The notes beneath the pieces were generated by a model that was not told where the DNA came from, did not search any database, and saw nothing but the letters and a program-made list of their open reading frames with translations. The translations under genes and the position numbers were made by a program. Of a stretch of DNA of 20,404 nt, positions 17,107 through 20,374 are shown one piece after another (the first letter of the stretch is position 1; each line of letters starts with the position of its first letter). The stretch covers positions 1 to 20,404 of the IMG/VR virus record IMGVR_UViG_3300031801_000038, one strand, 5' to 3'. Source of the DNA: a virus.

Positions 17107-18318
17107 ATGTCCGAATTTTATGCTGCAGGGAATAATGAATCCACTAAAGCTCTATTCTTAAAGAGAACCTACTATAGAGGAACCACCACTGACTCAAAGA
17201 ATTTATCCAATTTGGTAGATTTTAATTTTGGAGAAAAGTATTTTTATGGTAGAGTCAACCGCTTTTTTATGCCGATGCATTATGTTAATCGTACGATTGC
17301 TTTGAAGGGGTTGACGGGAAATGATGAGAATGGTGTCCCACTGAGGGCCATGAGCTTTGTGGTAGATGCGTTTAAAGATTTAAGTCAACAATTTAATAAA
17401 TGTGCTTTAACCGGCAAGATAGATAACAATGATTTGTTCTTATCTAGTTTAAAAGTATACAAAGCATTTGAGGATCCGGTGGTCCAGTATAATAAATATT
17501 TAGCTAGCACGTTGGATGTAGTAGCTATGCAATTTATAAAAGGCAAAGTCGTATTTAAAAATTTTGATGAATTCATAAATGAATTGATGGGTTTTTTAAT
17601 AGCCCTTACGCGCCAATATCCTATTACAATGCCAGCATATATTAAAAGCAAATATTGCTCCATCACAACATCAGGACTCGCAATTGAAATAGCAGATCTC
17701 GATGCATCTAATGATAATATTAAAACCGAACAATTTGTTCAAAGTTTAAATTGGGATTTCTATGTGAATGCGTGTAATACTTATGGGTTTATGATTGATA
17801 AGTTTGTACCGTGGCGATTGGTAGCAGACATTGGTTCGACGCCCATGTTACAATATGCAAAAAACTATCCATTTTTGAATTCAACCGATGCAATCATTAA
17901 TCTTGGATACAGTACATCCCAGAACGACTTTTATAATAAATTTAAATATTATTTATTAAATTTGTATAATAAAGTTAAAGGGAAAGGGTTCCTAGTCACT
18001 GAGGATTGCGGTGGAATTACTCAAGCCAAACTTGTAGTTCCCGAAGAATATGACATAGCCAAATTGACGAGCAAATATAATGAGATCTATTTCCTTCAAT
18101 TATATTTTACTCTGCGTTTTAATGAGGAAGTGTCTCCCTTGGATGAGGGGGACCGAACACGCCTAATAGATGACGCCATCGAAATGTATATGAGCCAGGG
18201 GATAGAAAAAAGTTTATACAATTTTGAAAGAATTCTTAGTAAACCATTTGACTATCGCGGCTCTTTGAGTTATATTAATAAACACCAGCAAGCAGTTCGC
18301 GATTCGGAGGGCCCTTGA
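17107..18318 (+). CDS. Virion-associated protein of unknown family
   Basis: A 403-aa protein with a strong ribosome binding site (AAAAAGGAG) in the 14-base gap before the ATG. It is rich in Tyr, Phe, Asn and Lys, with no signal peptide and no clear membrane segment; a hydrophobic stretch around residue 160 (INELMGFLIALTRQYP) is amphipathic. I see a helical central part with repeated aromatic residues (FYVNACNTYGFMIDKFVPW, NKFKYYLLNLYNKVKG) and a C-terminal helical region. It resembles no T4 protein I know. It sits directly after the 1112-aa baseplate-region gene and shares the operon, so a structural or tail-assembly role is likely but unproven. Its stop codon overlaps the polymerase start (TTGA at 18315-18318). 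Confidence 0.85.
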   Translation: MSEFYAAGNNESTKALFLKRTYYRGTTTDSKNLSNLVDFNFGEKYFYGRVNRFFMPMHYVNRTIALKGLTGNDENGVPLRAMSFVVDAFKDLSQQFNKCALTGKIDNNDLFLSSLKVYKAFEDPVVQYNKYLASTLDVVAMQFIKGKVVFKNFDEFINELMGFLIALTRQYPITMPAYIKSKYCSITTSGLAIEIADLDASNDNIKTEQFVQSLNWDFYVNACNTYGFMIDKFVPWRLVADIGSTPMLQYAKNYPFLNSTDAIINLGYSTSQNDFYNKFKYYLLNLYNKVKGKGFLVTEDCGGITQAKLVVPEEYDIAKLTSKYNEIYFLQLYFTLRFNEEVSPLDEGDRTRLIDDAIEMYMSQGIEKSLYNFERILSKPFDYRGSLSYINKHQQAVRDSEGP

Positions 18319-19505
18319 TATTCCAGACACTGGATGATAAAACAGAATGCGTGGGTGTGTATGCGGACGGTAAACTTTATTTTGAGGATATACCATCGGA
18401 TTTAACGCACACCTGGAAATACACCGGCACCCTAAAGAACAAAGAGATAAAGTATGCATGGCTTTATTGCAGCGGCCGTAGTTTAGAACAAGCAGCCCCA
18501 GAAGACATGCTAGCCGAATTGGCAAAAGCCCAGCGTCGGTTTAATGCCTATATGAAATCTTTTAGAATTGCGAAGATTAATATGCGTGAACATTGTGTAT
18601 TCGATTTAGTGCCCGCAGATTTCCTTAAACAGTTTTGCGAAATAAAAAATAAGATTACTAAGTATGTGTTTGAGAATTATGATAAACCAGATCACTATGA
18701 CCATCTAGCGGAGGTGCAAGCACTTCTTTATAAAATTAAATACCAAGATTTAAACCTCACCAATGATGGGTGTAGAAATCTTTTTTACAGAACCAGAGAT
18801 AGAGACAAAATTAAAAACCTTCTCGATGGTTATACACATATCGACTATAATTTGTTTGGAACGGTAACAGGGAGATTGGCCACCAACCCCGAGTCCTTTC
18901 CCATGTTGACTCTCCGTCAAGACTATCGCAAAATTATTAAACCTCACAACGATTTCTTTTTGTCGTTAGATTATAATGGAGCAGAGGTACGTACACTGCT
19001 AGGGCTATCCGGAGTGGAACAACCTACGGGGGACATTCACCAATGGAATATGGAAAATGTATTCGGTTCGCAGATGAATATAAATAGAGAGGTTGCTAAA
19101 ACACTTTTCTTTGCCTGGTTATATAACCCCTCCTCTCGCGCGATTGACACGGAATACTATGATCGTCAGAAGCTGTTGGGACAATGGTATACCGATGGTA
19201 TAATCACCACCCCTTACCATAGGAGCATCAAGGTAACCGAAGAAAAAGCATTCAATTATCTGATCCAAAGCACGACTGCAGACATTGTACTGGAGAAAGC
19301 TGTAGAGATTGATAAGATGCTAGAGGGAAAGAAATCATTTATTTCCCATATCATTCATGACGAAATTGTAATCGACTTAGCGGACGAAGAGAGGGATCTT
19401 ACGCCCCAGATTAAGAAGGTGTTCAGCGAAACACGATACGGAAGTTATATGGTAAATCTTCAGGCCGGCAAAAATTATTTTGACCTAAAAGAGTTGAAGT
19501 TATGA
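18315..19505 (+). CDS. Compact family-A DNA polymerase (polymerase domain only)
   Basis: A 396-aa protein with the PolI-type polymerase core. Motifs in order: TGRLAT (185-190, R187 like E. coli R668); motif A SLDYNGAEVR with catalytic D219 and E224; O-helix R258-K262-F266-Y270, exactly the R-x3-K-x3-F-x3-Y spacing of E. coli R754/K758/F762/Y766; QSTTADIV (318-325); motif C HIIHDEIVID with H348, D349, E350. The residue matching E. coli 762 is Phe. There is no 3'-5' or 5'-3' exonuclease domain, and motif B to C is only 87 residues (124 in E. coli), so the fingers appear trimmed. It starts at TTG 18315 with GGAGGG (18306-18311) just upstream; the next in-frame ATG, at residue 65, would still keep the motifs. 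Lying at the end of a tail operon, it is unusual, since T4 uses a family-B polymerase. Confidence 0.88.
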   Translation: MIFQTLDDKTECVGVYADGKLYFEDIPSDLTHTWKYTGTLKNKEIKYAWLYCSGRSLEQAAPEDMLAELAKAQRRFNAYMKSFRIAKINMREHCVFDLVPADFLKQFCEIKNKITKYVFENYDKPDHYDHLAEVQALLYKIKYQDLNLTNDGCRNLFYRTRDRDKIKNLLDGYTHIDYNLFGTVTGRLATNPESFPMLTLRQDYRKIIKPHNDFFLSLDYNGAEVRTLLGLSGVEQPTGDIHQWNMENVFGSQMNINREVAKTLFFAWLYNPSSRAIDTEYYDRQKLLGQWYTDGIITTPYHRSIKVTEEKAFNYLIQSTTADIVLEKAVEIDKMLEGKKSFISHIIHDEIVIDLADEERDLTPQIKKVFSETRYGSYMVNLQAGKNYFDLKELKL

Positions 19506-20341
19506 TTTCCATTGTAGGACTAGGGAATGCCGCATCCGCCATTGCGGAAAATTTTAATGCAACCTCCAATTATAATGTGTTTTTAATGAATGATAAGGTA
19601 TCTCGCACGTCTAAGTATAAATTTAAATTAAAGTCCTATGAAAAACCAGAAGAATATGAGAAGAACATCCCTAATGTAAAAAAGTTTTTTAGTAATCTCG
19701 ATGAGCACGTGCAGTTTTTGATTGTGGGTTCTTCCTATAGCTCGAATTATTCATTAGGCATTTTACAACAATTGAAAAAGAAGAGAGTAGATATTATTTA
19801 TATCAAGCCAGATATAGAATTGTTGACCGGGGTTCCCAAGCTGCTTGAAAACGTAGCATTTGGTGTGCTCCAAGAGTATGCGCGCTCCGCCTTATTAAAT
19901 TCGATGACTCTTATATCAAATTTTAAACTGGAAGAGATCCTCCAAAACGTTCCGGTGAAAGAGTATTACAATGTACTCAATAATTCTATTTACTCCACAG
20001 TACATTACTTAAACTTTTTTGAACACAATGAGCCAGAAATTGGTTTAGTAGCTAAGCCGTCTGAGTTATGTCGGATTAGAACGGTAGGAATTTTAGACAT
20101 GGAAACTCTTGAAGAAAAGTGGCTCTTTGACCTTGACGTTGAGAGAGAACTATGTTATTATATGTGTATCAATCAAAAAAGATTGGAGGAAGAGGGTGGC
20201 TTACACCGGAAGATCGTAGGAATGTTGAAGAGCAAACCAAGGAATGCCTTTCGCAAGATTTCGTATGCGATTTACGAGACGCCTTTACAACAAGACTTTG
20301 GGTTTGTCGTGGCCCACACAAACACGATACAATCAAATTAA
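19502..20341 (+). CDS. Possible divergent tubulin/FtsZ-like protein
   Basis: A 279-aa protein whose ATG overlaps the polymerase stop (ATGA). It starts directly with a beta strand and glycine loop (ISIVGLGNAASAIAENF, residues 2-18), then a second strand (NVFLMND, 25-31). A further strand ends in a Ser-rich loop (FLIVGSSYSSNYSLGILQQL, 72-91) where FtsZ/tubulin has GGGTG(S/T)G. Next come IIYIKPD (98-104), a helix NVAFGVLQEYARSAL, and TLISNFKLEEIL (136-147), an order that mirrors FtsZ's VVTxPF...EG...helix...LIVIPN. The GGGTG box and the NxDxxD catalytic loop are not conserved, so GTP hydrolysis is doubtful. The simpler alternative is a Rossmann NAD-binding protein of unknown role. The C-terminal 90 residues are charged and unassigned. 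The gene call is firm; the family is a hypothesis. Confidence 0.85.
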   Translation: MISIVGLGNAASAIAENFNATSNYNVFLMNDKVSRTSKYKFKLKSYEKPEEYEKNIPNVKKFFSNLDEHVQFLIVGSSYSSNYSLGILQQLKKKRVDIIYIKPDIELLTGVPKLLENVAFGVLQEYARSALLNSMTLISNFKLEEILQNVPVKEYYNVLNNSIYSTVHYLNFFEHNEPEIGLVAKPSELCRIRTVGILDMETLEEKWLFDLDVERELCYYMCINQKRLEEEGGLHRKIVGMLKSKPRNAFRKISYAIYETPLQQDFGFVVAHTNTIQSN

Positions 20342-20345
20342 ACTC

Positions 20346-20374
20346 TTGACTTGCTTTGTCGAGAGTGTTATAAT
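20346..20374 (+). promoter_or_regulatory. Sigma70-type promoter
   Basis: TTGACT (20346-20351), a 17-base spacer and TATAAT (20369-20374): 5 of 6 and 6 of 6 consensus with optimal spacing. It begins five bases after the stop of the preceding gene and points to a new unit outside the window. Such host-type promoters usually drive early phage genes. Confidence 0.85.

Follow-up and report, generated by a model that had tools for sequence, protein, structure and literature searches.

The window analysed here, a 20.4-kb fragment (20,404 nucleotides) of the genome of an uncultured marine bacteriophage, carries near its right end a gene for a protein of 279 aa, TubB, which is read from the forward strand between an ATG start and a TAA stop codon (Table 1). 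The sequence-only reading of this DNA had placed the ORF at exactly these positions, and the strings it quoted (GLGNAAS, NVFLMND, VGSSYSSNYS, IIYIKPD and TLISNFKLEEIL) are each present in the translation. Upstream lie genes for a minimal family A DNA polymerase (PolA) and for a protein without an assigned family, and directly 3' of the tubB stop codon there is a strong sigma-70-like promoter, matching 11 of the 12 consensus positions with a spacing of 17, that probably serves the gene for a gp32-like SSB past the window end. Exact matches to the promoter were found at 15 of 232 loci. In longer homologues of TubB, the reading frame continues into the promoter stretch and encodes the tail TLDKLEQE, which means that the last codons of tubB and the -35 box can share sequence.

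Table 1. Genes, promoter and TubB sequence elements at the tubB locus (positions in the window; residues numbered from the TubB start).
Feature	Positions	Strand	Basis
Protein of 403 aa, family not assigned, upstream neighbour of PolA	17107-18318	+	ORF list; constant neighbour
Minimal family A DNA polymerase (PolA), ~395 aa	18315-19505	+	Pfam PF00476, E 3e-16
Overlap of PolA stop and TubB start, ATGA (translational coupling)	19502-19505	+	Same offset in 159/162 loci
TubB (P0001), predicted degenerate tubulin-superfamily protein, 279 aa	19502-20341	+	ORF, relatives, AlphaFold model, PDB matches
T1 loop, residues 6-13, GLGNAASA	19517-19540	+	Motif table; aligned to T1 of FtsZ, PhuZ and TubA
T4 loop, residues 76-83, GSSYSSNY, replacing GGGTG(S/T)G	19727-19750	+	Model and family conservation
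T6, residues 139-140, SN, counterpart of FtsZ IPN(D)	19916-19921	+	Profile alignment, register correct, score not significant
Core helix H7, residues 152-175	19955-20026	+	Model and conservation
T7 region, residues 176-190, without NxDxxD and without H8 before S7	20027-20071	+	Model DSSP and motif table
Strong sigma-70-like promoter, TTGACT-17-TATAAT	20346-20374	+	Sequence pattern

TubB belongs to a large family. A search from the single sequence returned 41 relatives with 59–95% identity, and alignment-based searches raised the number to 423 and then to 538, so that more than 500 relatives are now recognised in marine viral contigs. A divergent seed sequence gave a second clade of 100 loci, clade A being that of the window's copy, and further members of a third sub-clade were recovered in an additional search. 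The full-length intact ORFs collected number 242, of which 150 are unique, and the lowest pairwise identity among them is 43%. Compared with its closest relative, TubB has a dN/dS of 0.05 (0.023/0.431, NG86) and, on these substitution rates, is a genuine gene under strong purifying selection. No relative was found by tblastn among 50,697 cultured-phage records, in the bacterial and archaeal genomes searched, or in Pfam and PHROGs when single proteins and 15 members were scanned. The few Pfam or PHROG matches, such as uteroglobin, were dismissed as chance.

The sequence-only reading proposed a highly divergent member of the tubulin/FtsZ superfamily, in which strands and loops follow the order of the GTPase domain, and structure prediction agrees with this. 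The AlphaFold model of TubB (67 homologues, no templates; mean pLDDT 92.4, pTM 0.91) retains that order, and has the two domains and core helix H7 by which the fold is recognised. Its elements, named after FtsZ/tubulin by our own assignment onto the model DSSP, are S1 (residues 2–7), H1 (9–20), S2 (24–30), S4 (69–75), H4 (79–89), S5 (95–102), H5 (110–128), S6 (134–139), H6 (140–147), H7 (152–175), S7 (192–198), S8 (216–224), H10 (234–243), S9 (252–260) and S10 (266–273). Against the PDB, Foldseek placed FtsZ and TubZ on top (E 5e-12). VIA-align gave Z 23.3 for CetZ (3zid_B; 257 residues, 3.2 Å), 22.3 for TubZ, 21.5 for FtsZ and 20.8 for tubulin; the scores for these four groups range from 23.3 to 20.6 and the matches span residues 1–279, where the sequence-only reading had looked for such matches across residues 1–180. 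Identity in the structural alignments with FtsZ and CetZ is 9–14%. In a viral structure library, FtsZ/tubulin-like phage proteins also ranked first. That TubB adopts the complete two-domain tubulin/FtsZ fold is, as judged from the model, close to certain. It is very hard to believe that the protein is instead an NAD(P)-binding Rossmann enzyme, or has some other fold, and that the tubulin match is an AlphaFold artefact. Sequence profiles do not detect a tubulin in TubB, and subthreshold, weak Pfam matches to CoA_binding_2 and F420_oxidored occur in 3–4 of 15 members, but the model shows the two tubulin domains and the long H7 with high confidence, the best 50 PDB matches are all of the tubulin superfamily in both programs, with no dehydrogenase (the outcome that had been named as counting against a tubulin) among them, and in the viral list epimerases and oxidoreductases do not appear before E ~1e-3 to 1e-2.

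Profile comparisons, to which the sequence-only reading had also looked, did not give the same answer as structure. PF00091 matched none of 15 TubB members and nothing within the window, a PDB sequence search with the TubB profile returned nothing, and the PHROG for PhuZ (phrog_4733) did not match TubB. Alignments by hhalign with FtsZ, PhuZ and TubA profiles (TubA being the second tubulin described below) were not significant, also after clade B was added; E was 0.07 against 10 PhuZ sequences, compared with 2e-7 for an FtsZ–PhuZ control in the same set-up. The hhalign registers are right at T1 and at T6–H7, and the score was reached by 1 to 3 of 40 column shuffles; as proof of homology, these scores were therefore set aside as lying within the shuffled-column null. 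Homology thus rests on the predicted structure together with the T1 loop of clade B. In clade A this loop is degenerate (GLGNAASA), and in clade B and the third sub-clade it reads GIG(E/D)AGCN and GIGTAGEN, respectively, retaining the FtsZ-type GxGxxGxN (GIGxAGxN in B/C). This retention is independent support, from sequence, for common descent. On predicted fold and deep ancestry TubB is here counted within the superfamily, whereas its motifs place it outside the GTPase families.

The GTPase motifs themselves are degenerate, in line with the degenerate or new branch that had been suggested. At T4, a Ser/Asn loop had been read in place of GGGTG, and the family bears this out: the loop is GSSxSSNY in clade A and GSSFSANY or G(S/A)GRTANA in clades B/C, and GGGTG is absent from every member inspected. 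G76 is invariant and S78, S80, S81, N82 and Y83 are conserved in at least 90% of the family. NxDxxD, already described as unrecognisable, was not found in residues 176–190, and in the model this segment passes directly into strand S7 with no helix H8. D/E188 was considered as a possible counterpart of the second T7 acid, but with no H8 at this place in the model the alignment was given up. Helix H7 has K153, N160, H168, N171 and F173 invariant, and the residues around the expected pocket (G8, G76, P103, D104, S139 and N140 of T6, and N160) are all conserved at 98% or more in all clades. Since the pocket loops are so strongly conserved, TubB probably still binds some ligand, perhaps a nucleotide. 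For GTP hydrolysis, one tubulin subunit must supply T4 and the adjoining one T7. With T4 altered and both T7 and H8 missing, TubB is predicted to be unable to hydrolyse GTP, and should not trigger hydrolysis in another subunit either.

It could be supposed that TubB nevertheless polymerises alone, either with a novel mode of nucleotide binding through its altered T4 or with no hydrolysis at all, and represents a second, independent phage cytoskeleton. The full-length two-domain fold and the strong conservation of both pocket loops and C-terminal domain are in keeping with this, but in known FtsZ/tubulin members the T7 acids and H8 form the longitudinal contact, and their loss argues against canonical protofilaments, making this an unlikely explanation.

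The genetic context points to replication. In contigs that are long enough the order is constant (1112-aa protein, 403-aa protein, PolA, TubB, gp32-like SSB), the first of these being probably a virion protein, and the PolA/TubB overlap measures 4 nt in 159 of 162 loci, which bears out the claim that TubB is encoded in one unit with virion genes and a polymerase. Pairwise identities of PolA and TubB correlate (r 0.79), as expected for co-inherited genes. Further downstream, long contigs carry RecA/UvsX-like, 5'-exonuclease-like and DnaB-like helicase genes, named by eye. PolA gave no match to an exonuclease family or domain in Pfam or PHROG, and its best cultured relatives are ~24% identical; a phage with T4-like virion genes would not usually be expected to have a family A polymerase of only ~395 aa. 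The 403-aa protein had no credible match in either database. A related uncultured phage of 484 kb, LR756508, keeps the structural–PolA–SSB–RecA order (LR756508.1, 237348–246268; L356) with no detectable TubB in its PolA–gp32–RecA block, and since the block is otherwise comparable, TubB looks like a lineage-specific addition. At the place of TubB, LR756508 has a 358-aa acidic protein.

Two explanations have to be weighed against this context. TubB could be a former tubulin that now acts as an accessory to the polymerase or replisome (a clamp, processivity or nucleotide-sensing factor), working as a monomer or small oligomer without forming filaments. The near-universal overlap with PolA, the adjoining SSB gene, the small size of a polymerase lacking an exonuclease match, the loss of T7/H8 and GGGTG, and the equally constant 403-aa neighbour all suit such a role; LR756508, however, indicates that the polymerase block can do without TubB, and every large TubB-bearing record also carries a gene for TubA, so we consider an accessory factor rather unlikely. 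A second proposal, that TubB binds host FtsZ as a decoy subunit and blocks or diverts cell division, appears improbable. Its fold is nearest to FtsZ/CetZ/TubZ, and the missing T7 would be expected to stop subunit addition, but a gene that overlaps a polymerase gene and is found in all parts of the lineage is more readily seen as part of core replication than as an accessory used to take over the host.

Beyond what the sequence-only reading had envisaged, related phages encode a second tubulin, TubA (P0004, 383 aa), with intact motifs: GVGGGGNKMA at T1, AGGGGGTGSS at T4 and SFDSKDLE at T7. Its match to Pfam Tubulin (42 bits) is above cut-off and its best PDB sequence match is Staphylococcus aureus FtsZ (E 3.5e-10). 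Among ten TubB-bearing records searched, Pfam Tubulin was above cut-off in all six that exceed 100 kb, whereas the four shorter records gave no such match. In total, TubA is present in eight of eight TubB-bearing records of >100 kb, five of which are 189–196 kb. One of them (G011, 191 kb) combines TubA with a clade B TubB; it was found via TubA and so cannot serve as independent evidence in that direction. Another (G022, 194 kb) carries the third TubB sub-clade and has TubA split across the contig ends, and is therefore probably a complete, circularly permuted genome. The records that have TubA and no TubB (G012–G019) lack PolA as well, and so are most likely fragments. No second tubulin is visible in the window, itself no more than a 20.4-kb piece. 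Neither TubA nor TubB is found in LR756508, or in Microcystis phage Mel-JY01, Flavobacterium phage immuto and HTVC008M, which were picked as nearest cultured relatives by tail sheath. In the genomes inspected, the TubA gene follows a gp47/gp46-like recombination gene and, in the records read, overlaps it; it lies in a different part of the genome from tubB.

A phage that has an intact tubulin in addition to TubB makes a regulatory subunit the simplest reading of the latter, and the coupling of TubB to the polymerase suggests attachment to replication sites. TubA would form GTP-driven filaments of the TubZ/PhuZ kind, and TubB would be a non-hydrolysing partner that attaches to TubA at one end or on one face and acts as its cap, nucleator or adaptor. 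Because its synthesis would be coupled to that of the polymerase, TubB would hold the TubA filament at the phage replication machinery, and the filament could thereby place or segregate replicating genomes inside the host cell. The co-occurrence of the two genes in the large records, the overlap with PolA, the gp32-like gene downstream and the gp47/gp46-like neighbour of TubA speak for this partnership; against it, the genes lie apart in the genome, the window's own fragment shows no second tubulin, and the two proteins do not change at matching rates, TubA being 81–91% identical and TubB falling to 43%. Such a role at the replication machinery is put forward tentatively, as a possibility with a little less than even standing. 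The broader picture is more speculative: the 190-kb T4-like marine phages of this widespread lineage might have a two-component system, in which a GTPase tubulin and a pseudo-tubulin co-translated with the polymerase form a mixed or capped filament tethered to replication.

Phage tubulins known to date are the GTPase families TubZ of c-st and PhuZ (PMC7950403), and PhiKZ-like marine jumbo phages are also known to encode tubulin (PMC9123017). No report of a phage tubulin lacking GGGTG, or of a phage that encodes two tubulins, was found in the openly searchable literature. PhuZ, or phiKZ TubZ, of nucleus-forming jumbo phages shares with TubB a phage-encoded tubulin fold (PMC7950403, PMC3678025) and a likely involvement with phage DNA inside the cell. 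PhuZ, however, is reported to be a dynamic GTPase filament (PMC7950403) and has a recognisable T4 box (GGASGS in phiKZ), whereas TubB has no such box and no T7, is ~50 aa shorter, and comes from 190-kb T4-like phages; a weak test in five records of the TubB lineage did not find phiKZ chimallin. TubZ of Bacillus plasmids and Clostridium phage c-st, so close to TubB in structure, offers a possible functional parallel in its partition-type role, in which it acts with TubR and centromere DNA (PMC7950403), but it retains the GTPase motifs that TubB lacks. FtsZ and CetZ provide the best fold matches, and share GxGxAGxN at T1 with clade B of TubB, yet differ from TubB in the low identity, the lack of a significant profile match and the possession of GGGTG and NxDxxD/H8. 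Other divergent branches of the superfamily, FtsZl1 and FtsZl2 of Makarova and Koonin, both have GGGTG(S/T)G, and one was discovered by motif search (PMC2875224). TubB lacks GGGTG and would therefore have been missed by searches of that kind; the same paper mentions no phage members (PMC2875224). Two tubulin paralogues per organism are seen also in BtubA/BtubB and alpha/beta tubulin, but TubA and TubB have drifted much further apart from each other and their genes are not adjacent. In the alpha/beta pair, one of the two sites is non-hydrolysed.

TubB adds a very divergent branch to the tubulin superfamily, one whose fold has been kept under strong selection after the loss of catalytic elements, and its lineage points to phages that carry both an active and a degenerate tubulin beside replication genes. 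Together, TubB and TubA suggest a viral skeleton built of two parts, for which no earlier description was found. If the two interact, they would provide a simple model for the regulation of an active tubulin by an inactive one, and would be a sign that replication is helped by a cytoskeleton also in common marine phages that are not nucleus-forming jumbo phages.

TubA has some further features of its own. Its AlphaFold model, made from 15 near-identical sequences, is poor (pLDDT 50), and although a fold search with it was still led by FtsZ/CetZ, the assignment of TubA rests on sequence match and not on this model. Among cultured phages only phage G matches TubA, and weakly: gp138 of Bacillus phage G (JN638751, 78773–79360), annotated without function, gives E 8e-4. 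In L183 (1297–2448) and its relatives, the tubulin domain of TubA is preceded by a conserved N-terminal extension of ~65 aa (DFGMVEDFGLQMEYSDEDLLPENTAP), which is possibly a linker or binding tail.
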